This document shows, in pieces, positions 13,311 to 51,800 of a stretch of DNA of 64,000 nucleotides; position 1 is the stretch's first letter; each line of letters starts with the position of its first letter. The stretch comes from Closterium sp. NIES-65 (lineage: Eukaryota; Streptophyta; Zygnematophyceae; Desmidiales; Closteriaceae). Location of the stretch: contig CANXME010000309.1 of the NCBI GenBank assembly GCA_948144175.1, positions 868,001 through 932,000 of the forward strand, written 5' to 3'. The position numbers and the translations under genes were made by a program. The notes under the pieces were generated by a model, which worked only from the letters and a program-made list of their open reading frames with translations, made no database searches and was not told the DNA's origin.

Positions 13311-13525
13311 CACCCATTGTATGCACTACACGGACAATTCTTCCAATGACAAGCCAACCAGTAACGCATCCAGAACAAGCCAGAAATCCTTTTGATAGGA
13401 CGAAATCTTCACTTCACTGCATTGCAACAGCTTCCCATGCCTGGCGATCCTCCTCATGTTGTCCAGCGACAATCTCTAGCTGCTCCTCGTGAAACTCTCG
13501 TCTCAATATTCACTTCACTTCCCTT
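13311..13525 (-). pseudogene. Decayed tail copy of the 41.8-kb small gene
   Basis: The words AGAACAAGCCAGAAATCCTT, CTTCCCATGC, GCGATCCTCCT, CCAGCGACAATCTCT and CTCCTCGTGAAACTCT match 41690-41940, the last part and 3' flank of the gene at 41839-42243. The reading frame is lost. The fragment lies downstream of MLO-A, as the intact gene lies downstream of MLO-B. It therefore marks the edge of the segment duplicated together with MLO. Confidence 0.8.
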
Positions 13526-13990
13526 GGTATCGCATCGCCAGACACGGCACTTCCACAACACGCTATCATCAAGCACTTATTGACGGGGCGGAAGGGGATA
13601 CTCGCGCAGGCGAAGTCACGAAGTTTCGTCAGGCGAAAGGGCATCAATGCCGTGCATAGAAGTATTGCAGCTACATGATTATTGCTCCTACTTGGTATCG
13701 CCAGACACGGCACTTCCACACACGCTATCATCAAGCAGTTCTATTGACGGCGCGGAAGAGGTTACTCGGCGCAGGCGAAGTCGCGAAGTTTCGTCAAGCG
13801 AAAGTGCATCATTGCCGTGCATAGAAGTATTGCAGCTACAGGATTATTGCTCCTACTTGGTATCGCCAGACACGGCACTTCCACACACGCTATTATCAAG
13901 CACTTCTATTGACGGCGCGGAAGGGGATACTCGGCGCAGGCGAAGTCACGAAGCTTCGTCAGCGCAGACGCACGCGACTCGCAATGGTCT
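13525..13990. repeat. 165-bp direct repeat upstream of MLO-B
   Basis: About 2.8 copies of a unit with ATCGCCAGACACGGCACTTCC, TTGACGG-GCGGAAG and GCGCAGGCGAAGTC (period 165 bp, for example 13651 to 13816). MLO-A has a single related block at 277-420. This is a promoter-proximal duplication peculiar to copy B. Confidence 0.8.
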
Positions 13991-14303
13991 TCACGGCGCC
14001 GCTACTCTCGCTCGAAGGAGCCACGGATGATAAATTACTCGACCCAAAAAAACACAAGCCACCCTGAAGGACAGCGCGTGCCTGACGGGCCGCAAAGCTA
14101 TTATCTGACGGGCACCACCTCTCCTACGTTTTGATTGGATTCTTGTAGCGAAGCCAGTCAGGGCGACTGATAACTTGCTCGCATCTGACGCTTTTCTCAG
14201 GAGGCATTGAGGCATTGGGGTCTGCTTTTGAGGCATTGCCGATTGTTACATTGTCTGCTCCATTGTCCGACAAAACCCGTTACATCTTCATCGTTGGCTG
14301 GCA
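13991..14303 (+). promoter_or_regulatory. Upstream region of MLO-B
   Basis: No gene is seen. The sequence from about 14035 to the ATG at 14304 aligns loosely with 530-764 of MLO-A (shared words such as CGTTACATCTTCATCGTT versus CGGTCATCTTCATCGTT). It is therefore the homologous leader and promoter. Confidence 0.5.
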
Positions 14304-14414
14304 ATGTCGGGAAGTCGTCATGATTTCGCCGTGTCGGACCTGCGGCGCCATCTGCTCTTCGAGCGCATTCTCGCCAAAGGATCCGGAGGCGGTGAGACGG
14401 AGCCAGGCGGAATG

Positions 14415-15297
14415 TACAACTACATGGTTTCCTCGCCTTTGAGTCGACTCAAAAGTGTACAACTACATGGTTTACTCGCCTTTGAGTCGACTCAAAAGTG
14501 TACAACTACATGGTTTACTCGCCTTTGAGTCGACTCAAAAGTGTACAACTACATGGTTTACTCGCCTTTGAGTCGACTCAAAAGTGTACAACTACATGGT
14601 TTACTCGCCTTTGAGTCGACTCAAAAGTGTACAACTACATGGTTTACTCGCCTTTGAGTCGACTCAAAAGTGTACAACTACATGGTCTACTCGCCTTTGA
14701 GTCGACTCAAAAGTGTACAACTACATGGTTTACTCGCCTTTGAGTCGACTCAAAAGTGTACAACTACATGGTTTACTCGCCATTGAGTCGACTCAAAAGT
14801 GTACAACTACATGGTTTACTCGCCTTTGAGTCGACTCAAAAGTGTACAACTACATGGTTTACTCGCCTTTGAGTCGACTCAAAAGTGTACAACTACATGG
14901 TTTACTCGCCTTTGAGTCGACTCAAAAGTGTACAACTACATGGTTTACTCGCCTTTGAGTCGACTCAAAAGTGTACAACTACATGGTTTACTCGCCTTTG
15001 AGTCGACTCAAAAGTGTACAACTACATGGTTTACTCGCCTTTGAGTCGACTCAAAAGTGTACAACTACATGGTTTACTCGCCTTTGAGTCGACTCAAAAG
15101 TGTACAACTACATGGTTTACTCGCCTTTGAGTCGACTCAAAAGTGTACAACTACATGGTTTACTCGCCTTTGAGTCGACTCAAAAGTGTACAACTACATG
15201 GTTTACTCGCCTTTGAGTCGACTCAAAAGTGTACAACTACATGGTCTACTCGCCTTTGAGTCGACTCAAAAGTGTACAACTACATGGTTTACTCGCC
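14415..15297. repeat. 43-bp satellite inside MLO-B exon 1 (20 units plus partial)
   Basis: The spacing from the first TACAACTACATGG (14415) to the last (15275) is 860 bp, exactly 20 x 43 with no indels. Each unit is a 23-bp piece of exon coding for YNYMVYSP joined to the perfect palindrome TTTGAGTCGACTCAAA plus a few bases. Only the last copy continues into the normal exon (GAGCTACCTCATC). Unit differences are a few point changes. Confidence 0.97.
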
Positions 15298-16290
15298 GAG
15301 CTACCTCATCGCTATAGTGACCGTCGTAATTGTCACGATTACACTGCTCTTCAAGAAAACCATCCGTGTCATCCACCGTGCAAGCCGCGAAGGATGACGG
15401 TTTCGAGAAAACCTCAACTTCAAATCGCATATACTTTCTTTCGTCTTTTCAGGCTTCTCTAGTGCAAGGAGAGGAAGCCGGCCAGGCTGTGTAACACATC
15501 ATGCATTGTGTCTTGTGCGCAGTGGTTTGGTCACAGGAAGAATAAGGCCCTTGCGCACGTGGTCGACCGCATTAAAGACGGTATGGACTACCTTATCTCA
15601 GGGAGGACACCTCTGACTTCTCATGAAGTGGGGTGAAGGGGTTTACAGTGTGCCTCAGGGAGAAAACCAACAATCTCATGGAGTATCGCAACTGTCGATT
15701 TTCTCCTCTTTCTCCCCTTGCTCTCAATCTGCCAGAACTTATGGTCGCGGGATTCCTCTCCATCGTTCTCGCGTTAATCAATCCGCTCCTCGCCGGGTTG
15801 TGCGTGTCAGTCGCGAGAGACACCATTCTTATTCCGTGCCAACCGCAGGAGGTGGCTTATCATTCTCCACCGCCGCCGCCCATACCTGCCAGTACAGCTG
15901 CTAACTATACAAATAAGGGTTTACCACTGGTTCAGTTGAATCAGAGTGGGGTTACTCCCCACAGCGGAAATGGCAAGACATTCTCGACGGTCGTCAATAC
16001 CGAGCAGTTCGCGAACGGAACTGGGGTCGAGAAAGACCAAGAGCAGCATAATCGGCATCTTTTGGAGGGAGGCGGCGGTTGGGAGCATGACAGCAGGTTC
16101 ATCCACCACGTGCGAAGGAAGCTGGCGAGTTTCCCGAACGAATGTCCAGATGTGAGTGAATACATGCCCACCTCCTCTTGCTCCAGCACCCTGTGGTTGA
16201 CCCTGCGAGTTTCCCGAACGAATGTCCAGCTGTGAGTGTCAATACATGCCCTTTCCACCTCCTCTAGCTGTGATACTCAAGTTGCTACTT

Positions 16291-16293
<3 letters not shown>

Positions 16294-16326
<33 letters not shown>
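16294..16326. repeat. 33-base poly-C tract in MLO-B intron 3
   Basis: An uninterrupted run of C lies shortly after a duplicated exon-3 end with a second GTGAGTGTC donor (about 16206-16238). The length is prone to sequencing error. Confidence 0.85.
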
Positions 16327-16328
<2 letters not shown>

Positions 16329-16704: not shown

Positions 16705-17060
16705 GGTATCAGGTATGTGTTTAGGGGGTGTGGTATCAAGCATGTGTTCAGGGGGTGTGGTATCAGGCATGTGTTCAGGGGGTGTGGTATCAGGCATGTG
16801 TTCAGGGGGTGTGGTATCAGGCATGTGTTCAAGGGGTGTGGTATCAGGCATGTGTTCAGGGGGTGTGGTATCAGGCATGTGTTCAGGGGGTGTGGTATCA
16901 GGCATGTGTTTAGGGGGTGTGGTATCAGGCATGTGTTCAGGGGGTGTGGTATCTGTTATGTGTTCAGGGGTGTGGTATCAGGTATGTTTCAGGAGTGTGG
17001 TATCAGGTATGTGTTCAGGGGTGTGGTATCAGGCATGTGTTAAGGGTGTGGTATCAGGTA
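16705..17060 (+). repeat. 27-bp minisatellite of splice donors, MLO-B intron 5
   Basis: About 13 units carry GTGGTATCAGG(T/C)ATGTGTTCAGG. The first is the true exon-5 end and donor (16712/16713). Most later units read CAGGCATGT, so the donor-like word is GC in most copies and GT in a few. The intron (16713-17258, 546 bp) is a multiple of three and has no stop in the exon frame, so retention would add a 182-residue insert with 9-residue GGVVSGMCS-like repeats. Confidence 0.88.
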
Positions 17061-17140
17061 TGTGTTCCCTTCACAGCTCACCTCACTCGCACTCTGTGTC
17101 GCTCTCCCCTCTTCTCTTCATCGCTCGCCCCTGGGTCACT

Positions 17141-17985: not shown

Positions 17986-18096
17986 AAGGCAATCTTGCAA
18001 CCCTAAGTTAGCCTCTCAACCTTGCCATCTTTCTGAGGCGCCTCAAAAAGGCAATCTTGCAACCCTAAGTTAGCCTCTCAACCTTGCCATCTTTCA
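17986..18096. repeat. Direct repeat with a palindrome at the junction
   Basis: A ~46-bp segment starting AAGGCAATCTTGCAACCC occurs at 17986 and again at 18048. Between the copies lies TTCTGAGGCGCCTCAAAAAG, whose core TGAGGCGCCTCA (18034-18045) is a perfect palindrome. It lies in MLO-B intron 6. Confidence 0.9.
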
Positions 18097-18214
18097 ACTG
18101 TGCCATCTTTCTTCTCCCCTCTCCCTTCCACATTCGCCCTTCCACGTTCTCTTCTCCTCCCCCCCCCAATGCTGTGTCTCCCCTATCATCCACCCACGTC
18201 CCACCCCAACCCAC

Positions 18215-18275
18215 CCACGGCAATGCCTTTCCCGGCAACTGTTCAACCCCATTCACTTTTGAGGCGCCTCAAAAG
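18215..18275. repeat. Truncated exon-7 copy ending in a palindrome
   Basis: A copy of the exon-7 start (CAATGCCTTTCCCGGCAACTG and onwards) runs to CCCATTCA. It is then cut by CTTTTGAGGCGCCTCAAAAG, a perfect 20-bp palindrome at 18256-18275. The used exon 7 follows at 18324. Confidence 0.88.
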
Positions 18276-20384
18276 ACGTTCCACCCCATCCTACCCCATC
18301 TCACCCCATCTCCGTCTCCACAGCAATGCTTTTTCCAGCAGCTGTTCAACCCCATCACTCAGTCTGATTACTACACTCTCGGACTTGCATTCATTCATGT
18401 AAGTGACATGCGCTATGATATTTACTACTACTGATATTACTATCATCATTAACATGAATTCCACTACTATTATTTTCATTAGTTTATTATGTTTTTATTA
18501 GTTTTTATTGTTGCTTTATTATCTATATTGTTATTGTAATCTTTGGTTTGTTTTCCCAACCTCCTTTAAGATGTACACAGTGAAGTGCATCTCTTCTTTG
18601 TGGTTGATCTATTCTCAAGCACTGATGTTGTTCCTCCCTTGGTGCCTTCTTTCCACAGACTCAAAATTAAGCTCCACTCGCCCACTTCCCTCCCATTTTC
18701 TCCATCTTTCAGAATCAGGACCTTCCTCGCGACTTTGATTTCTATCACTACGTGGTTGGCTCACTGGAGAAAGATTTTGTGTACATCGTCGGCCTCAGGT
18801 GAATGCTCAGGTGTTTTCAACAGGTGAAATCTTATGTGTATTCTCACAGACGCAAAATGACATGCTCATCCTTCTCAGGTAAAGACTCAGGTGTTTACAA
18901 CAAATTGTTTCTGATTCCTTTCTGTTTTTTCCCCCATTTCCCACGATATCCCCTCTGAAATCTTTCCTTGCCTTTCCCGCCTCTCCCAACCCCTTCCCTT
19001 TGCCTACCCAGCTTTCCTCTCTGGATCAGTCTCATCATTGTTATATGCATCACAAGCTACAGTAAGTCACTCCTTTCTATTGTATTTTTAGGGCAGAGTG
19101 AATACACCAAATATGTTACTCAATAGTCTACTACTTGATCAATCCCTCTTATGCTCACTATTATAACAATTCTCAACACCTTCCTTCGACTTCTACTCAC
19201 AGCATTCAGCCTTCTGCTTTTGTTAGATTTTATATATTTTTAGCAAAACTCTGCCAACTTGCCATTCGCCCTGCCAGCCTGTCATTCGCCCAGCCAGCCT
19301 GTCATTCGCCATGCCTGCCTGTCATTCGCCCTGCCTGCCTGTCATTCGCCTCTGCTCACACCATCACTCTCTGTCTGGACCCGTCCTTTCCCTACTGTCG
19401 CTGCATCTGTGTCAAGTTCCACAAGAAAAATGTGATAGGAATAGTGTATATTGAGAAAGCTTGCTTTCTGATTATTGCAAGGCAACGTGCTTCATTTTAA
19501 TTGGGTAATTACAACATTCTCGTCCAACTTACACATTACATAAACATCAACTAGGGGTGGGCGGGGGGGAAGCAGAACTGAAAAGTTCCGAAATGAAGAC
19601 GTGGGTGGAGGCCAAATGGCCTCCAACCCTCGTTATGTACTCGGGAAGAGGCATTCGCAGTTGCCTTGCTTCACTACAGTCAGCTGCGCTTTCACAATCT
19701 TTATTTTTAGAAAGTGTTTCACACTTTCAAAAAATGTCATATTGAGAAAGCTTGCTTTCTGATTATTGCAAGGCAACGTGCTTCATTTTAATTGGGCCTT
19801 CTGAGACATGTGCGTGCGTGGGCTAAGCGTAGATCGCGAAGCCGGTTGATGGCGATGTCCAGTGATATCAGTTGTTGGTGCAGGTCGTTGCATTCCCTGT
19901 CGACGTGGTTATGCGAGTTGCTCCCTCCTTTGGTAGATGTATGTGCCCTTCGTTGTTGGTGGAGAGGGGGCCCGTGGTTTAGAATGATTGTTATGCTGGC
20001 ATGCGCGGTGGGGAAGATGGTTGTTGAAGACGGCCCATGTGTCAGTGATGAAGCTCCCAGTATTGCGCGTAGACTGGTGCCGCGATTTTGATGTTGTTTG
20101 GTCGATGACGCGGCGTAGGGTCTTGGACTAGTGACGTGTTATAAAAAATCAATGCTTTAGTTTGAAACTTTCATATTTGCGATTGGCCCCGAGTACGAGA
20201 TCTTTAGCTAGAGGAACTAAGGGGGGCTTAGAATAAGGTGTGTCCGTAGGGAAGAGGCTGATATTGAAATATGATGCTTGCGGGACTGGTGCGGTATGCA
20301 TCATTTGTATCATGTTGAGATCCGAAAGGGTGTGGGTTTGTAAGAAAAATGTCGCATAACAAAACCTCCAGCCATGCGTTACTG

Positions 20385-23234: not shown

Positions 23235-26200
23235 CACCCCCATAGGCAAAGTGGGGGAGAACAAGGGGTCACAAGACCAGTCAAGTAAAGCAAAGCAAAG
23301 CTCAGGGTGGATCACAAAGTCACCACACATTCCGAGCACAAGTTCAAAAAAAGGCCAGAAGGCCAGTTCATATGCAAGATCATATATAAAGATATACAAG
23401 AGTCAAGCAAGTAAGAGCAAGAGTATATATAGGTGAAGGTACAAGCAAGGTCAAGAAGTGAGCAAGTGAGGCAAGACAGACACAAGACCCAACTGCATGC
23501 AACAACGCTGATGATCACAAGGCGCAAGTGCCTTAGTGAAGACATCAGCAGTGTTGGCCTCAGAGGCCACGTACGCAAGTCGTAACTATCCACGCTGCTG
23601 CAGCTCACGAGCAAGAAAGTAGCGGAGGGCAATGTGCTTCGTTCTGTGCTCCAGTCGCTGCTCTCGACACAAGGCCAGCATGGCCTTGTTGTCTACGTAC
23701 AGGACTGGAGGAGAACGAGGCTGCTCTCCAAGGTCGGTCAGCAGGTAGGTGAGCCAGCGTAACTCCTGTGCAGCCATAGCCCCAGCGTAGATCTCAGCCT
23801 CACAACTGGAGCCCAGAACAGAAGACGAGCGAGTAGCCCGCCACGAAACAGAGCCGGAACCAAGGCTGAAGGTGCAACCCTGTGACGACCGCTGCGTAGC
23901 CTGGTCGTCAGCCCAGGAAGCGTCTGCGTGCCCAGTGAGGACCACTGGACTGCGCCCTCCAAGCACTAGCCCCATGCCCGACGTACTGCACAAGTAACGC
24001 AACACCCTCTTCGCTGCAGCCATGTGCTCTGGTCGGTGTCTCCCAGGAGCAACATAGCGTGCTAGAATGCTAAGAGGGTATGCAAGGTCAGGACGTGTGC
24101 AGGTCATCAGGTACATGAGGCAGCCAACAAGCTCTGCAAACGGGCCACTCGACTCTGCGGACTCATCCGAAGGCAGAGCTGAGAGCGAGTGGCGAGTAGG
24201 CAGAGGAGTGGCCTGAGGCGAGGAGTACGTGAAGCCGAAGCGCTGAAGGACCTGCTGCACCATGTGTGACTGAGTCAGGGTAATGGTGCGGCGCGCTCTG
24301 TCCCGGGTGATCTGCAAGCCAAAATAGCTACGCAGTTCACCCAGGTCAGTGCACGTATGTCTCTTCTGCAGCTCGGACTTCACGTAGGCGAGTCCAGCAG
24401 TGTCAGCTGTGGCAAAGACCAAGTCGTCGACGTACACGAGGATGTAGAACGGCGGCAGAGAGGTGTCGGTGCGCAGAAACAGCGACGGGTCGGCAGTAGA
24501 CGGAGCAAACCCAAGAGTCGCGAGCGTAGTCCTCAGTGTGTCGTGCCACTCACGTGGCGCCTGGCGGAGACCGTAGACTGGACGCCGGAGACTCCACTGG
24601 GTACCAGGAGGGAAAGACCCAGTGAAGCCAGGTGGGCGGCGCAGCCAGATCTCCTCGTGCAGACTGCCCTGCAAGAAAGCTGTGCTGAAGTCGAGAGAGT
24701 GCAGCTCGTAGTCACGGTGAGCAGCAACGTGCAGCAGAACCCGAAGAGTGGTCATCTTCGGGGTGGGGGAGAAGGTCTGAAAGTAGTCAACCCCCTGCCG
24801 CTGACTGGAGCCACGAGCCACGTAACGCGCCTTGAAGACAGGCGGAGAACCCGGCGGCCGCTTCACCCTGAAAATCCACATGCCACTGACGATGTTCGCC
24901 CCAGGAGGGGGGACAGCGTCGACGTAGGTGCCTGTGGACTTCCAGGAAGCCATCTCTGCATCCATAGCTGCCTGCCACTGAGAGGAGTAGGGACCCTCTA
25001 TCGCCTCCGCGTAAGAGCGCGGAGTCGGGATGTCTGGTGCATCCGGGTCTCCCTCAGGGGCTAGCAGTACAGACGCGAGATGGGGTGAAGCGGCGGCCAG
25101 ACACTGGAACTCCTCCTGCCTGTCCTCAAGGACGTCCGTGCCGAGGGCACACTCACCCCCGACGGACGGAGGACAGGCAGACTCAGACTCAGCGACAAGA
25201 CTGGCAGCGTAGTCTAGACGACAGCGCGCAGCAAAGTCGACAAGCTCAGTGACAAGGGCAGACGCAGCAGACGACTCGAAGGAAGGGTCAGTGACAGCAG
25301 TAGCAAGGAGACGCGTGACAGTAGGACTGGCAGCACGAAGTGAGTCCGACTCCGGGTCGGCAAGAGCAGGAAGAGAGGAAGCAGGAGGAGAAGGCAAAGG
25401 GGCACGCAGAGGAGCAGTGGACGGACGCAGTGACATCCGGTGCGTGCCAGGAACAGGAGGAGGACGCTGACGCGACCCGCGACCACTAGCGCGCTCAGTA
25501 CGAACAGGCGACGCAGGACGAGACGCAGGCTCACGACGCTCAGTAAGACCTCCAGTCGGACCAGCGTAGGCAGAAGGAGCAGGCAAAGGGGAGGCAGGCT
25601 GTAGCTGTGGCTGTGACCGGACAGGCTGCGGACCCTCTAAGGGAGGAGGAGAAAGTGGAAGACCAAGAACCTGCTGCAGGAGCGGAACGAAGTACGGTCG
25701 GGGCCGCGCGGCGACGCCAGAAACAGCAGGAACAGCACCAGCACCCTCGGCAGGAGCACCCACTCCAGTAGCACCTCTAGCAGCACCACCAGAAGCTCCA
25801 GAACCTCCAGCAGCAGCACCAGGAGCACTGTCAGTCAGACCGCCAGCAGCAGGCTCAGCGCCAACACCCTCAGTAGCACCAGCTCCAGGAGAACTCGCAG
25901 ACCCAGCAGCTCCAGCACCCACAGGACGAGCACCGCCGGGACGCGCGGCAGCAGTGCCCTCTGCAGCCGAAGAACCACCAGCACCAGCAGCACGCCTCCA
26001 GCGCCTGGCAAACCACTCACGCAGCTCCTGTGGGGAGAGTGGCTCCCGGCGAGACGAAGCACCCCCAGGCTCAGCACCCCCAGGCTCAGCACCCCTAGGC
26101 ACAGCACTCCCAGGCACAGCACCCCCAGGCTCGGCACCTCCAGGCTCAGCACCCCCAGGCACAGCACCCCCAGGCTCAGCACCTCCAGGCTCAGCACCCC

Positions 26201-29200: not shown

Positions 29201-29425
29201 GACAAAGTCAAAGAGAGAGACCTCATCGACCGCATCACACAGTAAGTACAGCTGCAGGTCCTCAATCCAGACTGCAAAGTCAATGGCTCTACCCTCAGCG
29301 TCAAAAGCTAGGACATTGGGGGTGGCCATGACAGCAGCTGACAGTCTCACCGGGCAGGAAGAGTCGGGTAGGTCAGCGGCGCAGGTACACAGCCCAGGAG
29401 CAGCAGTAGCCCGACAGGAGTAGGA

Positions 29426-30199
29426 GTGCAGCTCCTCTGGCGGCTCGGGCAGCTCGGGCGGCTCGGGCGGCTCGGGCGACTCGGGCGGCGCGGGCGGCTC
29501 GGGCGGCTCGGGCGGCTCGGGCGGCTCGGGTGGCTAGGGCGGCGCGGGCGGCCCGGGCGGCTTGGGCGGCTCAGGCGGCTCGGGCGGCGGCACGGGCGGC
29601 TGGGGCGGCTCGGTGGCGGCTCACGGGCGGCTAGGACGGCGCGCGGGGAGCTCACGGGCGGCTGGGCGGGCGGCGTCGGCGGCTCACGGGCGACGGCAGC
29701 GGCAGCGGCGTCGGCGGCTCACGGGTGGCGTCGGCGGCGTCGGCGGCTCACGGGCGGCGTCGGCGGCGTCGGCTGCTCACGGGCGGCGTCGGTAGCTCAC
29801 TGGCGGGCTGAAGGCCCACGGGTGGGCGGTTCGCGGGCAGCGCCGGCTCACGGGCGGGCGGCGTGACGGGCGGGCGGCGGGACGGGCGGCGGCGTCACGG
29901 GGGGGGGGGGGGGCGACGTGACGGGCGGCGGCGTCACGGGCGGCGGCGTCACGGGCGGCGGTTCACGGGCGGCTGCGTCACGGGCGGCGCTCACGGGCGG
30001 CGGCGCACGGGCGGCGCTAAAGGGTGGCGCGACGGGCGGCGGCTCACGGGCGGCGCTACGGGCGGCGGCTCACGGGCGGCGCTACGGGCGGCCGTACGGG
30101 CGGCGCTACTGGCTGCGCAAAGGGCGGCACGAACGGGCAGCCGCACGGGCGGCGCTGACGGGCGGCGCTAACGGGCGGCGCTAACGGGCGGCTCGAAAG
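29426..30199. repeat. GC-rich leader repeat of Copia-B
   Basis: Low-complexity sequence built of GGCTCGGGC and CACGGGCGGCG words fills the stretch between the nested element and Gag. Long reading frames on the plus strand here (GRLGRLG and similar) are by-products of the repeat. Confidence 0.85.
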
Positions 30200-38200: not shown

Positions 38201-41200
38201 TCCGCGGACAAGCTCTCGCCTCGTGCCGTCCCCTGTGTCTTCCTTGGTTTCCCTGAGGACTCCTCTGACTTCACCTTTTACCACCCTCCCTCTCACCGGT
38301 TCTTTGACTCCCGTGACGTCCGTTTCGAGGAGTCCACTCCGTACTACGTCAGGTACCCCAGTCGAGGTCTCCCGGTTCCTCCTCCCCCCCTCTTCCTGAC
38401 TGCCGTTCCCCCTCCTGCTCCCCCGGTACAGCCTCCCCCCCCTGGTCCAGCCCCGTCAGGTGTGTCCCAGGCTACCCCTCCTCCTTCGGTAGCCCCTCCG
38501 GTACAGCCTCCCTCCCCACAGTCCTCCTCGCAGCATGCCGCTGGTGCTAGCTCTCGAGAGGTTGGTGCGACGCCTGTTCCTGTACCGGTTTCTGGTTCTG
38601 GGGGTGCTGGAGTTAGAGCTGGAGTTGGAGCTGGAGTTGGAGCTGGAGTTGGCACTGGAGTTTCTGGTTCTGGGGGTGCTGGGGTTGGAGCTGGAGTTTC
38701 TGGTTCTGGAGTTGGAGCTGACCAGGTGGGTGCAGAGGACGCTTGTCGTCCGGGAGCTGGTGCTGGCCGCGCGGACACTGGGGGTGCTGCGTCTGGGGGT
38801 GAGGGTGCGCCTCCTTTGGGTTCAGGTGAGCCTGGGTCTGGAGCTGGTGTTAGTGCTGCCTCTGGGGGTGGTGAGCCTAGTTCTTCTGGAGTGGACTCTG
38901 GAGCTGCCGCTGCTTCGGACACTACTCCGCCCCCCCACCCCTACCCGACTAGGCACCAGGCTCGTGTTCGCCGTGCCCGTGACGATCAGCTGGCGTTGGA
39001 GAGAGAGGAGAGGGAGTTACAGCGGCTGGAGGAGCAGCAGCAGCAGCTGGACCCGCAGGAGCAGCAGTCCCAGCAGCAGCCGCGTCCGCAGCAGCAGCAG
39101 TCGCAGCCGCAGCAGCAGCAGCCACTTCCTCCTCCTGTCTCGGGTCTTCGGATCCTTGGTCTCCCCTCCCCTTCTCCTCCCTCCTCCGCCTCTCCTCCTG
39201 TCTACGGTCCCACGTTTCCTCCTCCTGACTCCTCCCCCGCTGTTTTCCCCAGTTCTCCGCCCTTGTCCTCTTCTCCTCCGTCTCGTTCTTGGGCTACTCG
39301 TCGCTCCCCTCGTGCTCGTCCCTCGTCTCCTGTTCCCTTCACTGACCTTCGTACTGCCTTCCTTCTTTCTAGTCCACCTCGTCCGTCTCAGTCTGTGCTT
39401 CCGTCTCCTCCTGAGTCGGCCCTCACTGTGTCGCTCCCTACTCCTGTCACTGACTACTACCGCACGTACCGTCCTGTTCTCTCTCGTGTTCTCGCCTCTC
39501 TTGTTACTCACCCTCGTGCCTCTGTGTCCTCTGTGTCCGCTCTTACTGCCGCAGTTACTGACTTTGCCTCTACCCGCCGCCTTGACTACGCCACCACGCT
39601 TGTGGCTGCTCCTCCTACCAGTCCTCTGGCCGTCGGGGGTGTGTCTGCCCTTGGCCGTGACGCCCTAGAGGACAGGCAGTTTGAGCTAGAGTTCCTGGCG
39701 GCCGCTTCCCCTCATCTCTGTGCCATGCTCCTCGCCCCTGAGGGTGACCCCGACGCCCTTGACATTCCGACTCCTCGCACTTACGCTGAGGCAGTGTCAG
39801 GGCCTTGGGCCTCTCAGTGGAGAGCTGCCATGGACGCAGAGATGGCCTCCTACAGATCCACAGGCACCTACGTCGATGAGGTTCCCCCCCCGGGGGCGAA
39901 CGTAGTCGACGGCATGTGGATCTACAGGGTGAAGCGGCCACCGGGATCTCCCCCGGTCTTCAAGGCGCGCTACGTGGCTAGAGGTTTCAGTCAGCGCGAG
40001 GGAGTTGACTTCTTTCAGACCTTCGCACCTACCCCGAAGATGACCACTCTTCGGGTGTTACTACACGTAGCAGCACAGAGAGACTACGAGTTACACTCTC
40101 TTGACTTCTCCACTGCTTTCCTTCAGGGCAGCCTACACGAGGAGGTCTGGTTGCGTCGTCCCTCGGCCTTCACTGGCACCTTCCCTCCTGGGACCCAGTG
40201 GAGGCTGAGGCGACCTGTTTACGGTCTTCGCCAGGCCCCTCGTGAGTGGCACGACACTCTGCGTTCTACCCTCTCTGACCTTGGGTTCCAGCCGTCTTCT
40301 GCCGACCCGTCGCTGTTCGTTCGTCGTGGCTCCACACCGTTCTTTGTTCTGGTTTACGTCGACGACCTCGTTTTCGCCACTCCGGACAGGGTTGCTTTGG
40401 CAGACGTGAAGTCCGAACTGCAGAAGAGACACACGTGCACTGATCTTGGTGAACTGCGCCACTACCTTGGCCTGCAGATCACCAGGGACAGAGCCGCTCG
40501 CACCATTACACTCTCACAGTCACACATGGTGCAGCAGGTCCTTCAGCGGTTCGGGCTTCAGCACTCCACCGTACAGCGCACACCTCTAGCTGTTGACCAC
40601 AGACTCACTGGTCCCTTTCCTGACGAGCCGTTTGAGCCTAGTGGTCCCTACGCAGAGCTTGTGGGTTGCCTCATGTACCTGATGACTTGTACTCGCCCGG
40701 ACCTCGCCTTCCCTCTCAGCATCCTTGCGCGCTTTGTTGCGCCAGGGAGACACCGTCCTGTTCACTGGACGGCAGCTGTGAGGGTGGCGAAGTACCTAGC
40801 GACTACATCAGGCGTGGGGCTAGTTCTTGGAGGGCAGCAGTCTGTCGTACTCACTGGTCACTGTGACTCCTCTTACGCTGACGACGCTGAGACTCACAGG
40901 TCTACTCAGGGGTACTGTTTCAGTCTGGGTTCTGGAGCTGTTTCCTGGCGTTCCACGCGCTCCTCTTCTGTCTCGACCTCTACAGCTGAGGCTGAGATTT
41001 ACGCTGGTGCCATGGCGGCACAGGAGTTGCGGTGGTTGACCTTCTTGCTCACTGACCTTGGTGAGCGGCCGAGCTCTGCACCGACCTTGTTTACTGACAA
41101 CAAGGCGTCGATCCTCCTCTGTCGTGAGCCGCGACTGGAGAGCAGAGTGAAGCACATTCACATCAGGTACTTTCTTCTGCGAGAGTTGCAGAGGCGTGGA

Positions 41201-41535
41201 CAGGCTCGCTTCGAGTTCGTAGAGTCCGAGGCCAACACTGCAGACATCTTCACCAAGGCGCTTCCGCCTTGTGACCACCAGAGGTGTTGTGTGCAGTTAG
41301 GCCTTGTTGACACAGGTTCTAGTCATGCGTAGACTTGAGTTTATTGCCTGCTTCGTCTGTACATTTACTATATATACTTGTGATCTCTTGGACTGGCCTT
41401 GTGGCCACTGTTGCTTGTGCTCAGAGTGTGTGGTGACGTTGTGATCCACCCTGAGCTTTGTTTTCTTTTGGACTGGTCTTGTGACCGTACTCTTTTTGTT
41501 TTTGCTAGACACCCCTCACTTAGGCTATGGGGGTG

Positions 41536-41694: not shown

Positions 41695-41838
41695 CCAGAA
41701 ATCCTTGTGCAAGAATGAAATCTTCACTTCACTTGCAGCAGCTTCCCATGCTTAGCAATCCTCCTAATGTCATCGAGTTACAATCTCTGCTTGATAAGCT
41801 GCTCCTCGTGAAACACTTTTAAGTTCGTCTCAGAAAAT
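41695..41838 (-). pseudogene. Partial tandem copy of the small gene's tail
   Basis: CAGCAGCTTCCCATGCTTAG and the ~90 bp after it repeat the last exon part at 41848-41940. The junction reads TTTTAAGTTCGTCTCAGAAAA, which looks like a decayed form of the TTTTGAGTCG(A/T)CTCAAAA palindrome found at other junctions in this window. Confidence 0.75.
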
Positions 41839-42243
41839 TCACTTCACTTCCAGCAGCTTCCCATGCTTAGCAATCCTCCTAATGTCATCCAGCGACAATC
41901 TCTGCTGAATAAGCTCCTCGTGAAACTCTTTCAACGCGTTGCAAAGCGCCACCGCATCTCCCGGCGGCAAGTGCGCCGCCACTCGCTCCTGCAGCACTTC
42001 CCAAAACGACCTAGAAGGAGTAGGAGCCGTTCCCCCAAGCCCTAGATTCGCTTCACCTGTCTCGGGTTGCTGCCCGGAAACTCCCTCTGCAAGTAAACTG
42101 ACTTGCTTGGGATTACCGCGCTGGGATTCAGATGCGTGGGAGGAAGCAGCAGCAGCGGTGGCCGGGAGATCGTTTTCGTTGTAGTCACGCGAGCGAACTA
42201 CTGGGTAAAGCGCCAGGGCTTTAAGAAAATCCGACTCATCCAT
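41839..42243 (-). CDS. Small uncharacterised protein (134 aa)
   Basis: A single-exon reading frame from ATG at 42243 to TAA at 41839. The N-terminus reads MDESDFLKALALYPVVRSRDY. A low-complexity Ala/Ser/Gly middle follows, then a charged, probably helical C-terminus (FWEVLQERVAAHLPPGDAVA and LKEFHEELIQQRLSLDDIRR). I do not recognise a named domain. The VVRSRDY start and FWE...EELSL-type end recall small uncharacterised plant proteins, but that is from memory and weak. Decayed tail copies at 41695-41838 and 13311-13525 support a real, duplicated locus. It converges on MLO-B and lies in tandem with the protease gene. Confidence 0.65.
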   Translation of the reverse strand: MDESDFLKALALYPVVRSRDYNENDLPATAAAASSHASESQRGNPKQVSLLAEGVSGQQPETGEANLGLGGTAPTPSRSFWEVLQERVAAHLPPGDAVALCNALKEFHEELIQQRLSLDDIRRIAKHGKLLEVK

Positions 42244-42843: not shown

Positions 42844-45800
42844 TCACCATCTTACCACATCATCATATAGCCATGGCATTGGTTCATGTGAACTGTGCTC
42901 CTCAAGCTCTCTACAAGAGCGGCCTTGTGCTAGTGCAACTTGCGCAAGCCTTTGACACGGTAAACCACTGCTTCCAGACGCCTCCATTACTGCTACTGCT
43001 GCTGGCCCTCGCTGAAAAGAAGACTCGTTCTCTTCTAGCAAACCCTCTCCACCAGCGCCGAGGAAAAGCACTGCAGATGCTAGCGCAGCCGCTAGTAGCG
43101 AGAGCATGAAAGTGGGGCGCCGAGCCGCAGAGGCGGACGACTTGACCGGTGGCGGCGGGGAGAGATTGGCTCCCACAATAATGGTGACGTTGTATTCCCC
43201 TCCATCGGCTGTGATCGTTCCCACGGAACCTGTATGATGAGATGCGCAGAGGGAGGAAAAGACAAGTGGAGGTCTTGTGGTTTGAAACGTCCCAACTGTG
43301 TAATCCAGCTGTCGGCAGCAACTTGTTTAGTGGGAGGGAGGGAGAAAGGTGGGAAGGAAGGAGGGAGAGAGAATGAGGAAGGAAGTAAGGGAGGGAAGGA
43401 AGAAGGAAGGGAGCAAAACTATTGAATGATGAACATTGTCTGCACAAGTGCACGGAGACTCACAGTCATATGGAGCCCATCCGAGCTTCATGTTGTCCGT
43501 GTCATACACCACAAGGTGACTTCTCAATAGACTCAAAAGTTAAAAAAGTTGCACAAGTGCAATGGAACTCACAGTCATATGGAGCCCGTCCGAGCTTCAT
43601 GTTATCCGTGTCGTACACAACGAGATGGTTGCCTTTGACTCGAGTCAAAGGCCACCTGACCATAGAGGCACCTCAGAGCACTGTTGCAGCAGTGCAGTGA
43701 AAGGAACTCACAGTCGTAGGGAGCCCATCCGAGCTTCATGTTATCCGTGTCGTACTCAACGAGATGGTTGCCTTTGACTTGAGTCAAAGGCCACCTGACC
43801 GTAGAAGCACCTCAGAGCACTGTTGCAGCAGTGCAGTGAAAGGAACTCACAGTCGTAGGGAGCCCATCCGAGCTTCATGTTATCCGTGTCATACACAACG
43901 AGATGGTTGCGCAGGACTATGTCTGGGAGAAGGGGAGAGGAGAGAGAAGGGACAGGATAGGCAAGGGTGAGCGGGAGGAGGAGGCGAGGGCAAGATTGTA
44001 CACGAAATTCTACCTTGATAACAGTGACTGTAACAAAAACAAGATTGTATCTCAATTGGCAGTGACTGGATGGAAACGCAATCAAGGGGTGTGCCTCCTA
44101 CGACAGTGACTGTAATGAATATGCCACACACCTCAAATGAACCAGTGAACACAGTAAATGCAAGGTGTACCTACCTCCAAATGACAGTGACAGTATGCAA
44201 GGTGTACCTCCAAAGACAGTGACTGTAACGAATGCAAGGTGTATCTCCAACGACAGTGGCTAACAAATGCAATGTGTACATCCAATGACAGTGACAGTAA
44301 CGAATGCAAGGTGTACATCCAATGACAGTGACAGTAACAAATGCAAGGTGTACCTCCCATGACAGTGACTGTAACAAATGCAATGTGTACATCCAATGAT
44401 AGTGACTGTAAGGAATGCAAGGTGTACATACCTCCAATGACAGTTATCTTGGAAAAGTCTCCTCCAAGCATGGGTTGCCATCCTATGCACGCAGCCATGA
44501 CCACCCCCTGCCAGCCACATGCACACACACACATGCAATCACAAACACACACACATGCAATCACAAACACACACACATGCAATCACACAGACACACACAT
44601 GCAATCACGTGACCAAACATGGGCTTATTGAGGTGCCTCAATAGTAGTCTCCTCTCTTCCTCTGAGCATGGCCCAGAGGGGAGGGGTGGAACGCTGCAAT
44701 CACTGAGGGCCGGAGGCGAGGTGTGCAGGAGGGAAAAGGCTGGAAGGCCGGACTCGAAAAAATTGCAGGAAAAAGGGAGAGGGAGGTGGCGTGGGGAGGA
44801 AGAGTGGAAAAGGGGGAAGAGTGGGAGAGGAAGCGTCAAGGGGGAGAAAGAGTGGGAGGGGGGAGAGGGGGGCGGAAGGGGGAGGAATGGCATAGTGGGC
44901 TCACATTAAAACGCAGGAAGTCATAGCCGCGAGGGACGATGGTCATGTACTCTCAGATGTGGGATGGGCTTGATTCAATAGGAAAGATTGGAAGGGATCG
45001 CATGCTGGGCTCACATTGGAGGGCAATGTGCAGTTTGACAATGCTATATGTGAACACATAGCCGGGGGGTTCGACGGTCATGTATTTCTGGTCGACTCAA
45101 AATAAATAACCCAGGCAGGGGTAGAAAGGGGATGGCATGCTGGGCTCACGTTTGAATGCAGGAAGACGTAGCCGGGGGGTTCAACGGTCAGCCCTCTCAG
45201 ATGGGGGACGGGGCTTGATTGATAAGGGAGGAGCGGAAGGAAAGGCATAGTGGACTCACATTTGAGTGCAGGAAGACATAGCCGGGGGGTTCAACGGTCA
45301 TGTCTGCCCCCTCGAAATGCAGAGTCACCGTCGGAAAGTACTTGGAAAGTTCCTCATACTTGCTGTGATAAGGAGGCAAGAACGCAGGACAGGAGACGGG
45401 AAGCGGGGAGCGGGGAGGGGGAGAGGGGGAGGGGGGTGGTGGGGCAGAACAGTTGATGACTAATTCTGAGGTGCCTGAGAAATGGTGGAGGAACTTTTAT
45501 CTATACTTTAATTGCCCTTGCTTAATGGGAGGCATTAGCCATCCATACCATACCACAGCTGCCCCTGGTGCGGGTGGGAAATATTGCTGTGATAAACAGG
45601 CCGTGCTACAACTAGCTGCGGTGCATTTGGCTGTAGCACGGCTGGCTGTAGCACTTCTGGCAGTAGTGCAACACAGCCTTACTCTTGCACAACTGCCTGT
45701 AGCGCACTCACTTGGAGCCAAAGTCGTAGCAGAGGAAGTCTGACGTGGCGCCCACTTGGGGCAAGGTGATGAGAGAAGTAACCTGGTAACAGGGGGCAAT

Positions 45801-48800
45801 GTGGGGAGGAGAGGGGTGGGAGTCGGGAGGAGGTGAGGAACGACAGAAGTGGAGGCTCTTTTGGAAGAGTAATGAAAGCAGTAACCTAACTATCAAGAGC
45901 AGCACCGATGAGGAGGGCTTTGTCAACAGCAGCACCAGTGAGGAGTGCACAGCCTATGAGAGGCATGAGGAGGAGGATAGCATTTTTGTCAACAGCAGCA
46001 TCGGCAACGCGAACAACCCACGTGGTGAGTGCACCGCCTCCCTCAGGCCCCCTTGTCATCCACCAGAGGGGCCTGAGGGAGGCGGTGCACTCACCACGTG
46101 GGTTGTTCGCGTTGCCGATGCTGCTGCTGACAAAAATGCTATCCTCCTCCTCTGCCCGTCATGGACTGTGTGCACTCCTCACTGGTGCTGCTGTTGACAA
46201 AGGTGAGGTCCTCCTTCCCACTCACCGCGTCCAGCCACGTGTTGTAGATGGGCGTGGGGAACATGGCGAGGGTGGTGCCACTGTCCATAATCACCCCTCC
46301 CTCCCCCCTGCAGGCTCCCCGACCCGCAGTAAAACCAGTGCATGAAGCCATGCACACACTGCTGCCCCCTGACTGCCACAAGCAACACTCACCGCGTCCA
46401 GCCACGTGTTGTAAATCGGAGTGGGGAACATGGCGAGGGTGGTGCCGCTGTCTATGATCACCCCTCCCGCCTGCAGGCTGCCCGAGCCGCCAAACACGTC
46501 CGGCTGCGGGGAGAAGGACGACTGGTCGATGCCTGGCAGGCGCTGCCCCCCCACTGAGATGCCGTTCAACTGGACATAATAATGTGATCTGGGGTTGGGG
46601 GACGAAGGGCAAGAGGAGGGGTTGGGAACAAGAGGAGGGTGGGGGGGAGGGTGTGAGCAGCCAAACACGTCCTGCTGCGAGGAGAAGGCCGGCTGGTCAA
46701 CGCCTGGCAGGCGCTGCCCTCCCACTGATACGCCGTTCAACTGGACATAGTAGTGCGACCTATTGGGGGGGTTGAAAGGGGGTGAGGGAGCATTGAAGTG
46801 AAGCATTGGGGATGAAGTACCCTGCATTTGAGTGAGCATAGATCTGCTATTGAGTCGTCTCAAAACACGACTCAGTACCATCCATTTGTGTGAGCATAGA
46901 TCTGCTATTGAGTCGACTCAAAACACGACTCAGTACCATCCATTTGTGTGAGCATAGATCTGCTATTGAGTCGACTCAAAACACGACTCAGTACCATCCA
47001 TTTGTGTGAGCATAGATCTGCTATTGAGTCGACTCAAAACACGACTCAGTACCATCCATTTGTGTGAGCATAGATCTGCTATTGAGTCAACTCAAAACAC
47101 GACTCAGTACCCTGCATTTGAGTGAGCATAGATCTGCTATTGAGTCGACTCAAAACACGACTCAGTACCCTGCATTTGTGTGAGCATAGATCTGCTATTG
47201 AGTTGACTCAAAACACGACTCAGTACCCTGCATTTGTGTGAGCATAGATCTGCTATTGAGTCGACTCAAAACACGACTCAGTACCCTGCATTTGTGTGAG
47301 CATAGATCTGCTTTCGAGTCGACTCAAAACACGACTCAGTACCATCCATTTGTGTGAGCATAGATCTGCTATTGAGTCGACTCAAAACACGACTCAGTAC
47401 CATCCATTTGTGTGAGCATAGATCTGCTATTGAGTCGACCCAAAACACGACTCAGTACCATCCATTTGTGTGAGCATAGATCTGCTATTGAGTCGACTCA
47501 AAACACGACTCAGTACCATCCATTTGTGTGAGCATAGATCTGCTATTGAGTCGACTCAAAACACGACTCAGTACCCTGCATTTGAGTGAGCATAGATCTG
47601 CTATTGAGTCGACTCAAAACACGACTCAGTACCATCCATTTGTGTGAGCATAGATCTGCTATTGAGTCAACTCAAAACACGACTCAGTACCCTGCATTTG
47701 AGTGAGCATAGATCTGCTATTGAGTCGACTCAAAACACGACTCAGTACCCTGCATTTGTGTGAGCATAGATCTGCTATTGAGTTGACTCAAAACACGACT
47801 CAGTACCCTGCATTTGTGTGAGCATAGATCTGCTTTCGAGTCGACTCAAAAAACGACTCAGTACCATCCATTTGTGTGAGCATAGATCTGCTATTGAGTC
47901 GACTCAAAACACGACTCAGTACCATCCATTTGTGTGAGCATAGATCTGCTATTGAGTCGACCCAAAACACGACTCAGTACCATCCATTTGTGTGAGCATA
48001 GATCTGCTATTGAGTCGACTCAAAACACGACTCAGTACCATCCATTTGTGTGAGCATAGATCTGCTATTGAGTCGACTCAAAACACGACTCAGTACCCTG
48101 CATTTGAGTGAGCATAGATCTGCTATTGAGTCGACTCAAAACACGACTCAGTACCCTGCATTTGTGTGAGCATAGATCTGCTATTGAGTTGACTCAAAAC
48201 ACGACTCTGTACCCTGCATTTGTGTGAGCATAGATCTGCTATTGAGTCGACTCAAAACACGACTCAGTACCCTGCATTTGTGTGAGCATAGATCTGCTTT
48301 CGAGTCGACTCAAAACACGACTCAGTACCATCCATTTGTGTGAGCATAGATCTGCTATTGAGTCGACTCAAAACACGACTCAGTACCATCCATTTGTGTG
48401 AGCATAGATCTGCTATTGAGTCGACTCAAAACACGACTCAGTACCATCCATTTGTGTGAGCATAGATCTGCTATTGAGTCGACTCAAAACACGACTCAGT
48501 ACCATCCATTTGTGTGAGCATAGATCTGCTATTGAGTCGACTCAAAACACGACTCAGTACCATCCATTTGTGTGAGCATAGATCTGCTATTGAGTCGACT
48601 CAAAACACGACTCAGTACCATCCATTTGTGTGAGCATAGATCTGCTATTGAGTCAACTCAAAACACGACTCAGTACCCTGCATTTGAGTGAGCATAGATC
48701 TGCTATTGAGTCGACTCAAAACACGACTCAGTACCCTGCATTTGTGTGAGCATAGATCTGCTTTCGAGTCGACTCAAAACACGACTCAGTACCATCCATT

Positions 48801-51800
48801 TGTGTGAGCATAGATCTGCTATTGAGTCGACTCAAAACACGACTCAGTACCATCCATTTGTGTGAGCATAGATCTGCTATTGAGTCGACTCAAAACACGA
48901 CTCAGTACCATCCATTTGTGTGAGCATAGATCTGCTATTGAGTCGACTCAAAACACGACTCAGTACCATCCATTTGTGTGAGCATAGATCTGCTATTGAG
49001 TCGACTCAAAACACGACTCAGTACCCTGCATTTGAGTGAGCATAGATCTGCTATTGAGTCGACTCAAAACACGACTCAGTACCCTGCATTTGTGTGAGCA
49101 TAGATCTGCTATTGAGTTGACTCAAAACACGACTCAGTACCCTGCATTTGTGTGAGCATAGATCTGCTATTGAGTCGACTCAAAACACGACTCAGTACCC
49201 TGCATTTGTGTGAGAATAGATCTGCTTTCGAGTCGACTCAAAACGCGACTCAGTACCATCCATTTGTGTGAGCATAGATCTGCTATTGAGTCGACTCAAA
49301 ACACGACTCAGTACCATCCATTTGTGTGAGCATAGATCTGCTATTGAGTCGACTCAAAACACGACTCAGTACCATCCATTTGTGTGAGCATAGATCTGCT
49401 ATTGAGTCGACTCAAAACACGACTCAGTACCATCCATTTGTGTGAGCATAGATCTGCTATTGAGTCGACTCAAAACACGACTCAGTACCATCCATTTGTG
49501 TGAGCATAGATCTGCTATTGAGTCGACTCAAAACACGACTCAGTACCATCCATTTGTGTGAGCATAGATCTGCTATTGAGTCGACTCAAAACACGACTCA
49601 GTACCCTGCATTTGAGTGAGCATAGATCTGCTATTGAGTCGACTCAAAACACGACTCAGTACCCTGCATTTGTGTGAGCATAGATCTGCTATTGAGTTGA
49701 CTCAAAACACGACTCAGTACCCTGCATTTGTGTGAGCATAGATCTGCTATTGAGTCGACTCAAAACACGACTCAGTACCCTGCATTTGAGTGAGCATAGA
49801 TCTGCTTTCGAGTCGACTCAAAACGCGACTCAGTACCATCCATTTGTGTGAGCATAGATCTGCTATTGAGTCGACTCAAAACACGACTCAGTACCATCCA
49901 TTTGTGTGAGCATAGATCTGCTATTGAGTCGACTCAAAACACGACTCAGTACCATCCATTTGTGTGAGCATAGATCTGCTATTGAGTCGACTCAAAACAC
50001 GACTCAGTACCATCCATTTGTGTGAGCATAGATCTGCTATTGAGTCGACTCAAAACACGACTCAGTACCATCCATTTGTGTGAGCATAGATCTGCTATTG
50101 AGTCGACTCAAAACACGACTCAAAAGCAGATGAGATACCCTGCATCTGTGTGAGCATAGAGCAAGCACCCCACATAAACCCCTCACCTGGCGGATTCCCT
50201 CACCTGTCGGCCAATAGACTCGTGTATAGCAGCCCATCTTCCAGCACCGTCCCAAAGATCAAACTCCTTCCCCCCAGCTCCTCGCCTCCCAGGCAGTGCC
50301 CCACCTGTCATCACTAGCCCTAACACCAACCAACCATCATTCCTCTCACCTGTCGTCCAGCAGACTCGTGTACAGCAGCCCATCCTCCAGCACCGTTCCA
50401 AAAATCAGACTACCTCCCCCGAGCTCCTCTCCCCCTAGGCAGTGCGCAAAGACGCCGTTGGTCTTGCGTGCCGGCTGCATTTGAGTGAGCATAGAGACCA
50501 TCCACATAAACCCCTCACCTGCCGAATTGCACTCACCTTACCTGGCACCATCATTCCCCTCACCTATCGTCCAGTAGACTCGTGTACAGCAGCCCATCCT
50601 CCAGAACTGTGCCGAAAATGAGACTCCCACCACCGAGCTCCTCGCCCCCTAGACAGTGCGCAAACACGCCGTTGGTCTTGCGTGCCACCTGCATCTGAGT
50701 GAGCATGGAGAGCGCCCCCATGTTGAGCCCCATCACTCCATCGACTAGATGATTGCCCGATACCAGGTTGCCTGACTGCTGGAACCCGCAGCTGGAGGGG
50801 CAGGGAAGGAGACGGAAGGGAGTGGGGCAGGGAGAAGAAGCGCAAGGGAGGGGGAGAGTGAGCATGGAGAGCGCCCCCATGTTGAGCCCCATCACCCCGT
50901 CTACTAGGTGGTTGCCCGAAACCAGGTTGCCCGACTGCTTGAACCCACAGCTGGAGGGGAACGGTGTGTGCGAGGGGAGGGGGAAAGATTTTTGAGGCGC
51001 CTCAAAAGTGTGAGGGGAGGGGGAAAGACTTTTAAGGGGCCTCAAAAGTCCTCAAAAGTTTTGAGGCGCCTCAAAAGTGCGAGGGGAGGGGGAAAGAGAG
51101 TGAGCATGGGGAGCGACCCCATGTTGAGCCCCATGACCCCGTCCACTAGATGGTTTCCGGATACCAGGTTGCCTGACTGCTGGAACCCACAACTGGTGAA
51201 GGAGTGATTGGGAGCATGGGGCGGCGGGGGCGGGCAGGAGGCAAGGCAATGTGCATGAGCGATGAAAGGAGAGAGGAGATCAACGGCCCATGCTGACGCA
51301 GCAAGCAGTGGTATTGCATGCTGCCTGCATGTGCGTGAGCATGGAGAGCGAGCCCATGCCCTTTCTCCCTCTCCCTCTCCCTCTCCCTCTCCCGTCCCCA
51401 GCCCCCCTCTCCCTACCCTCGCGCTCACCCAAAGAGATAGTCCATGGAGGCGGGATCGCCCCCCAGAGTAGAAAACGAGAGCCGGTCCCTTACCAAATAG
51501 CCGGTGCTGCTGGAGTTGTCGGCGTACTGGATGCCGTAGTAGCACCGCGCGGGTCCCTCGAGTTGGATGGGGTGCAGCATGTCCACACAGACAGCCCCTC
51601 TTTCCCCTCTCTTTCTACTCTCCTTTCCCCTCCTTTCCCCTGCCCCCCCCTGCCCGCCCCTACCCGCCCCTGCCCGCCCCCTCGCGCTCACCCAAACAGG
51701 TAGTCCATAGAAGCGGGATCACCGCCCAAAGTAGAGAAGGTAAGCCGGTCTTTAACCAAGTAGCCGGTGCTGCTGGACTTGTCGGCGTACTGGATGCCGT

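Follow-up and report, generated by a model that had tools for sequence, protein, structure and literature searches.

A 64-kb stretch of the genome of Closterium sp. NIES-65 (contig CANXME010000309.1, positions 868,001 to 932,000; the whole stretch is called the window hereafter) carries a family of short palindromes placed between the copies of duplicated segments, and the same family is found throughout the assembly. Our results suggest, with a probability of roughly 0.72, that these palindromes are micro-insertions of Penelope-like elements (PLEs) made by two-ended extension. An earlier note on the window had stated that no described element has this form. That statement has to be given up, because the palindromes are best read as fragments of PLEs, and palindromes at head-to-head PLE junctions are already on record in the part of PMC3846280 that treats them.

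A probable Penelope-like source for the palindromes

A genome scan, as proposed in the earlier note, found 30,327 copies of TTTTGAG-N4-CTCAAAA in the 874-Mb assembly and 4 copies of the reversed pattern. Four self-complementary cores make up 26,579 of the 30,327 (TCGA 13,080, GCGC 5,851, ACGT 5,047 and AATT 2,601), each with 0 matches in its control. Sites were sampled from 18 ten-kb stretches around the first listed matches and 2 others, and from short stretches around 20 TCGA, 20 + 13 ACGT, 10 AATT and 10 GCGC matches; these are the first places listed and not a random draw, arrays were counted once per 200 bp, and for 19 of the 20 short TCGA stretches the 24-bp search pattern took in 3 nt of each arm. 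The order repeat-palindrome-repeat, with the repeats ending and starting at the palindrome, is evident at 87 of the 109 distinct sites examined (TCGA 35/38, GCGC 16/18, ACGT 27/37, AATT 7/11 and others 2/5). The flanking repeats have a median length of 45 bp (13–237 bp), and the identity between their copies has a median of 95% and goes down to 0.73. In an earlier site set, 63 of 77 palindrome sites were flanked by repeats, against 183 of 1000 random positions taken from the same loci more than 500 bp from any palindrome, so that the enrichment at duplication junctions foreseen in the earlier note is present at the sampled sites. The score of the random positions also shows that tandem duplication is common here regardless of palindromes. 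The first anchoring tests, run with other settings and now superseded, gave 22/43 and 26/43 clusters against 317/2000 and 216/1500 random positions.

A viral source was considered and rejected. The motif does occur in viral contigs, but the 30 commonest cores listed there include none of the four, and 0 of the 119 viral matches listed lie between direct repeats by the same test.

Two recurrences of one 28-nt ACGT arm, which has 437 copies in the genome (control 0), led to PLE sequences on contigs C95 and C73. Their units of 3.63 kb start with the ACGT core followed by CTCAAAACACTCC (also written CTCAAAACACTCCTTCTTTCACGTGGC) and end with TTTTGAG and the same core, so that the motif is the boundary of the repeating unit at both tandem PLE loci examined. 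On C95 the unit starts are 3625 and 3628 bp apart, C73 has a full copy joined head to tail with a copy of 589 bp, and a reading frame of 700 aa crosses the unit boundary. The predicted reverse transcriptase (RT) has homologues among the proteins of Closterium sp. Yama58-4, NIES-53 and NIES-54 (49–59% identity), and shares 28% identity over 375 aa with a protein that combines an RT with a GIY-YIG domain. Its Pfam match to RVT_1 is weak (E 0.0035, below the cut-off). An AlphaFold2 (AF2) model from 23 aligned sequences has a mean predicted local distance difference test score (pLDDT) of 83.5, and its 11 best fold matches in PDB are all telomerase TERT, with TM-scores by query length of 0.34–0.39, which limits the match to the RT core. 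Telomerase fold matches together with an RT/GIY-YIG relative are the signature of PLEs.

The sampled PLEs look endonuclease-deficient: none of 14 PLE open reading frames (ORFs) has room for a GIY-YIG domain, the frame stopping 38–54 codons past the motif, and a Pfam search of two ORFs of the PLE copy L219 found no endonuclease upstream. Since endonuclease-deficient PLEs are a recognised subgroup (as described in the relevant part of PMC3846280), the missing GIY-YIG bars the canonical PLE subgroup only. An Rfam scan of L219 gave no hammerhead ribozyme match at E ≤ 1.

An RT query returned 67 matches (64 of 3032 candidates scored), and the 3′ end of 17 copies was fetched. In 14 of the 17, the exact 18-bp motif is located at homologous codons, L-[SR]-[RHI]-L-K, so that several PLE families have it within the 3′ end of the RT gene. 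The cores of the 14 are TCGA in six, AATT in three, GCGC and ACGT in two each, and GCAC in one. Two pairs are near-identical (L234/L240 and L236/L243) and L242 closely resembles L219; the independent families are therefore fewer than 14. As for the other three copies, L239 has the palindrome TTTTAAGTCGACTTAAAA, changed on both sides, L241 is mutated, and L229, of the group least like the query (37%), has no motif. As judged from these genes, different cores are the marks of different PLE families. The earlier note was right that the cores differ between palindromes, but the variation is not arbitrary, as GGCGCC, GTCGAC and the others would each point to a PLE family.

The palindrome extends for a variable distance beyond the constant 18 bp. 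The sequence added is that which PLEs have 3′ of their motif; it amounts to 0 to about 20 nt, is inverted between the two sides, and in matched copies reaches 18 nt at most. In ACGT inserts, the two arms of a single insert agree over 2.92 nt, against 0.55 ± 0.19 nt between inserts; the same comparison gives 3.55 against 0.71 ± 0.38 nt for AATT and 0.94 against 0.56 ± 0.16 nt for GCGC (equalled in 4 of 300 shuffles), while the values for TCGA, 3.97 against 2.93 ± 0.19 nt, are inflated by the fetching of about half of the TCGA sites with the 3-nt-arm pattern. Arm lengths within one insert are frequently unequal, one long and one short. Sources of individual arms could be named: PLE copy L228 for the insert at L041, L236 for L043, L238 for L199, L242 for L046 and L188, and L231 for L009 and for the first 10 nt of L202. 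An arm match of at least 6 nt to the 3′ side of a same-core PLE was found at 22/38 TCGA sites (a fraction inflated in the same way), 3/36 ACGT, 3/11 AATT and 1/18 GCGC sites, and the 5′ side of the PLEs gave such a match at 0 of 103 sites. Among the TCGA sites that were not chosen by their arms, 8 of 19 match the 3′ side and 0 the 5′ side. When ten hand-picked ACGT arms were translated in the PLE frame, eight read LK[TN]xLx[ST]R, one (L185) was cut short and one (L012) did not fit. The pattern in 8 of the 10 suggests that ACGT arms with no sampled match probably come from unsampled PLE subfamilies. Thus, the identity of core and arms with a PLE of the same family is clear in the sequences for TCGA, ACGT and AATT; GCGC inserts are assigned by the core and the homologous position alone (2 PLE copies), their arms being too short to decide. 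By eye, no clear non-palindromic source copy was found among the half-sites of a 264-kb sample; the PLE source already has the palindrome in its own sequence.

It has also been considered whether the palindromes are an ultra-short DNA transposon, similar to a miniature inverted-repeat transposable element, with termini of its own and long target-site duplications. The shared core, the flanking duplications and the arm subfamilies at unlinked loci (the 437 copies of one 28-nt arm) would agree with such an element. However, the outer ends vary and the duplications differ in length (13–237 bp), the arms are RT coding sequence, and eight of the ten translated ACGT arms keep the peptide pattern; no transposase-bearing partner was met, though no protein search was aimed at one. 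This explanation is disfavoured and appears highly improbable. When the PLE coding source was found, several candidates were dropped: a DNA transposon with these termini, telomeric repeats, hairpin telomeres and a small-RNA template.

The large PLE insertions show a comparable anatomy. At the 5′ boundaries on C73 and C95 there is a short inverted arm across the palindrome. Read in the direction of the element, the C73 insertion has a palindromic head, and an exact 36-bp direct repeat of host sequence abuts both of its ends. A large PLE therefore shares with the micro-insertions both the head and the size range of the duplication, and this 36-bp duplication raised our probability for the PLE explanation from 0.70 to 0.72.

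Proposed two-ended extension and its alternatives

Of the 174 arms at the 87 sites, 59 that measure at least 1 nt can be accounted for in full by a sampled PLE copy with the same core. The host sequence continues the PLE match for 1–6 nt in 42 of these 59 arms. Mean microhomology between host and PLE over the 59 arms is 1.39 nt, against 0.52 ± 0.10 nt with swapped hosts (0 of 2000 shuffles), which fits priming of the RT by host 3′ ends just 3′ of the stem-loop. The purified protein of an animal PLE cuts both strands and extends them, and begins reverse transcription inside an AC-rich stem loop (PMC11167929), and by analogy the palindromes look like the genomic outcome of two-ended extension that halts at the stem-loop.

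We propose that a PLE ribonucleoprotein would engage a staggered double-strand break, where each exposed host 3′ end would pair over a few nucleotides with the PLE RNA just downstream of the stem-loop and would be extended up to it. Both ends would then have gained the same tail, ending in a self-complementary 4-mer, and we infer that the tails join through this core. Head-to-head annealing and gap filling would give the order repeat-palindrome-repeat, with the overhang duplicated. The duplicated overhang could hold exon sequence, and the direct repeats could grow into minisatellites of the kind seen in the 43-bp and 58-bp arrays of the window. That the duplications are long and variable, and that an endonuclease is lacking, suggests the use of breaks arising by other means. 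Among the causes offered in the earlier note, templated repair and an ultra-short mobile palindrome went in the right direction; there is no need to invoke a dimeric endonuclease site, and the elements tested yielded no endonuclease domain.

The main rival of this mechanism is hairpin self-priming, in which one end would be extended through the stem-loop, and the 3′ end of the complementary DNA (cDNA) would fold onto its own CTCAAAA, copy its own arm and join the other end. Self-priming would explain why the arms of one insert agree, and it is the proposal made for head-to-head inverted repeats of rotifer PLEs with junction palindromes, in the section of PMC3846280 on these repeats. Folding of PLE segments as RNA gave the expected stem and 4-nt loop for L219 and L228, the same with a bulge for L231, and another structure for L227. 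However, a hairpin loop needs no self-complementarity, yet palindromic 4-mers make up 26,579 of the 30,327 cores, and microhomology is present in left and right arms alike. We consider self-priming unlikely, although it deserves more weight than any other alternative.

Somewhat less likely still is a capture event in which end joining at a staggered break takes up ready-made short palindromic DNA, either a cDNA end or an excised palindrome, so that the PLE would be the source of the fragment and the host repair would do the joining. Both ends of the inserts are variably trimmed and some inserts carry extra filler, as such capture would predict. Duplications are also frequent away from palindromes: besides the 183 of 1000 random positions, a survey of near-adjacent repeats with short spacers, which ignored the motif but used loci picked for it, found 163 repeats, 28 with palindromic spacers (the family motif being present in 25 of the 28) and 127 with neither motif nor palindrome. 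In contrast, the arms are often one long and one short instead of evenly trimmed, and one large PLE insertion shares the head and is flanked by a 36-bp duplication. Arm ends fall at host microhomologies above chance, as they should after priming, although microhomology-mediated joining could also yield them.

Several results weigh against two-ended extension by PLEs as the origin of the palindromes. A flanking repeat is absent at 22 of the 109 sites, and within the window the palindrome TATTGAGGTGCCTCAATA at 44626 has no flanking duplication in the analysis of junction anatomy. Direct repeats were sought around the C95 array, whose 3′ end lay outside the resolved sequence, and none turned up. 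Around half of the TCGA sites came from a pattern that takes in part of their arms, ACGT arms reach 6 nt at only 3 of 36 sites with few PLE copies sampled, and the short GCGC arms match same-core PLEs over 2.06 nt and other-core PLEs over 2.83 nt. Extra or rearranged filler is present in some inserts (L014, L017 and L039). The action of the enzyme is read from its genomic products only, and with no endonuclease in the 14 ORFs the origin of the staggered breaks is left unexplained. The purified animal PLE has an endonuclease, and its start site is in the 5′ part of its ORF. Furthermore, endonuclease-deficient PLEs of protists and fungi are said, in the part of PMC3846280 that deals with them, to be without the inverted organisation that is present here.

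A telomerase-like PLE enzyme without an endonuclease of its own might act as a genome-wide break-sealing activity, writing a universal self-complementary tail on any two 3′ ends, which would then stick together. In this lineage, repair by reverse transcription might thus be a main origin of tandem duplications, of minisatellites and of exon duplications. We put this forward tentatively, as a possibility somewhat short of even odds.

Palindromes in the window and an insert-free gene copy

The window contains 67 perfect palindromes of at least 14 bp, against about 4 expected by composition. As the earlier note had proposed, they form one family, to which 64 of the 67 belong (60 of the 64 within two arrays); the other three, at 43, 35544 and 56595, are unrelated. 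The sequence TTTTGAGGCGCCTCAAAA occurs at 18257, 50990 and 51059 (3 matches against 0 in 100 shuffles), and the start at 18256 given previously for the first of them is that of the 20-bp form CTTTTGAGGCGCCTCAAAAG (18256–18275). The core TGAGGCGCCTCA, confirmed at 18034, lies inside the near-palindrome 18031–18048, and GCCTTTGACTCGAGTCAAAGGC and its one-mismatch copy, reported at 43632 and 43771, are placed at 43631 and 43770. CTTTGACTCGAGTCAAAG is a variant of the palindrome motif.

Junction anatomy gave the order repeat-palindrome-repeat at the window sites that it resolved, in agreement with the earlier note, except for the isolated related palindrome TATTGAGGTGCCTCAATA (44626–44643), a counter-example with no duplication detected. 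No strand is assigned to the features that follow. In the region of the first exon of the second Mlo-like gene, a 43-bp array of 20.6 units (14413–15297) has a unit consisting of a 25-bp target repeat and TTTGAGTCGACTCAAAAG; its first palindromic insert, with a TCGA core, is at 14438–14455, between repeats 14413–14437 and 14456–14480 (96%). Further along the same gene, 44-bp direct repeats (17987–18030 and 18049–18092, 100%) surround the GCGC-core near-palindrome 18031–18048, and an older duplication (18187–18252 and 18287–18355, 85%) holds the palindrome CTTTTGAGGCGCCTCAAAAG. The decayed form noted near 41805 was found at about 41813–41834, inside a duplication of 41723–41812 and 41838–41924 (90%), and a second decayed palindrome, at 43521–43538, lies between 43441–43518 and 43550–43627 (90%). 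More tandem duplications at 43548–43908 (repeat pairs 43548–43630/43683–43769, 92%, and 43653–43769/43792–43908, 97%) have the palindromes GCCTTTGACTCGAGTCAAAGGC (43631) and GCCTTTGACTTGAGTCAAAGGC (43770); this is the TCGA form in a variant altered on both sides. A 58-bp array of 57 units (46816–50122), in the region of a TAXi-type aspartyl protease gene, has a TCGA-core palindrome in most units. Finally, the duplication 50846–50954/51084–51196 (90%) encloses GCGC-core palindromes at 50990–51007 and 51059–51076 with a decayed copy between them. The claim that one palindrome is present in every unit of both arrays has to be corrected: 19 units of the 43-bp array have TTTGAGTCGACTCAAA, but no unit of the 58-bp array does, and the latter carries TATTGAGTCGACTCAAAA (40), TTTCGAGTCGACTCAAAA (6) and mutated units.

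At window position 43631 (TTTGACTCGAGTCAAA) and in the PLE gene L239 on contig C1450 (TTTTAAGTCGACTTAAAA), the palindrome is kept despite changes on both sides, a hint that self-complementarity itself matters. On four other contigs (C277, C448, C562 and C637) there are arrays with a spacing of 39–63 bp and about 10 to 25 listed copies, each unit with a full PLE arm; these are apparently minisatellites grown from single insertions. An array at about 9327–9500 of L012 has units of about 20 bp with the half-motif TTTTGAGGCAC and no palindrome.

A second copy of the Mlo-like gene is located at about 0.6–4 kb of the window and was aligned to the copy at 14–19 kb. Three collinear Pfam matches, all weak and under the family cut-off, are the basis of the Mlo label; two other pieces matched nothing, and an Mlo-like fragment used as a protein query gave no match. 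At all three sites that correspond to 14431, 18031 and 18257, the paralogue shows the repeat once and lacks the palindrome. The counterpart of the 43-bp array (0.7–1.0 kb) is one copy with no palindrome, and the counterpart of 17987–18092 (3.6–3.9 kb) is without the 44-bp duplication and the palindrome. The simplest reading of this alignment is that palindrome and duplication arose together, later than the gene duplication. An assembly, library or cloning artefact, which the earlier note had raised as an alternative, is very unlikely and the least probable of the explanations considered: nothing was found in its favour, and decayed copies, diverged repeats (median 0.95, down to 0.73), the insert-free paralogue and cores traced to coding genes all argue against it. 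Both Mlo-like paralogues also carry related minisatellites of 25 bp and 27 bp (GGTATCAGGTATGTTTCAGGGGTGT and GGTATCAGGCATGTGTTCAGGGGGTGT; 2781–2942 and 16705–17067), the second longer than the first.

Known systems and neighbouring features

Athena and Coprina are names of endonuclease-deficient PLEs. Elements of this subgroup resemble those of Closterium in having a telomerase-like RT and no endonuclease, and would need ready 3′ ends; the known ones named in PMC3846280 (part on endonuclease-deficient PLEs) are described as telomeric and without the inverted organisation, whereas the Closterium ones lie within genes and elsewhere. The endonuclease-bearing Penelope of Adineta vaga, as presented in the corresponding part of the same source, is alike in its head-to-head inverted copies, palindromes at the 5′ end of the pseudo-long terminal repeat, tandem copies and target duplications, and the palindromes at its head-to-head copies measure 18 bp and 38 bp (PMC3846280). 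The copies shown there are large, with duplications of 8–10 bp (PMC3846280), whereas the Closterium inserts, of which there are tens of thousands, are mostly about 18–60 bp with duplications of 13–237 bp, and no GIY-YIG domain was detected. PAc, a Poseidon-type PLE of Anolis, likewise has a tandem organisation, an internal RT start in a stem loop, and cutting and extension of both strands, but it has an endonuclease and its start site is 111–118 bp into the ORF; the main text of that study reports no genome-wide palindromic micro-insertions (PMC11167929). Outside PLEs, the GC clusters of yeast mitochondria are also very short mobile palindromes with putative target duplications; they differ in being organellar and GC-rich, with AG as target nucleotides and no PLE link in the account given (PMC4478555, relevant part). 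The SIRC elements of Arabidopsis similarly have short direct repeats split by other DNA, but their spacers are reportedly diverse (PMC10342631, relevant part).

In the open-access literature, we found no report of PLE micro-insertions this small or numerous, of long duplications around them, or of these motifs. Thus, palindromes at inverted PLE junctions were known, and micro-insertions in such size and number appear to be new. Under two-ended extension by PLEs, a class of tens of thousands of unexplained palindromes would gain a source, and a repeat easily overlooked by annotation would be explained. The commonest visible product of a retroelement may then be a scar of roughly 20–60 bp with a host duplication, and not a copy of itself. 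Such a relation would tie a telomerase-like RT to tandem duplication, to the birth of minisatellites and to exon duplication, and would offer very many natural products for reading how PLEs insert, which is an open question.

Other repetitive features are present in the window. Another RT ORF (56858–59932; RVT_1, E 1e-17) adjoins a 48-bp array of 54 units (59909–62509). Copia-like polyprotein ORFs are found at 7648–12899, 23586–29533 and 35474–41332 (RVT_2 in the first; the others recognised by eye), with long low-complexity tracts and one open frame of 1952 aa. A run of 33 C is located at 16294–16326.

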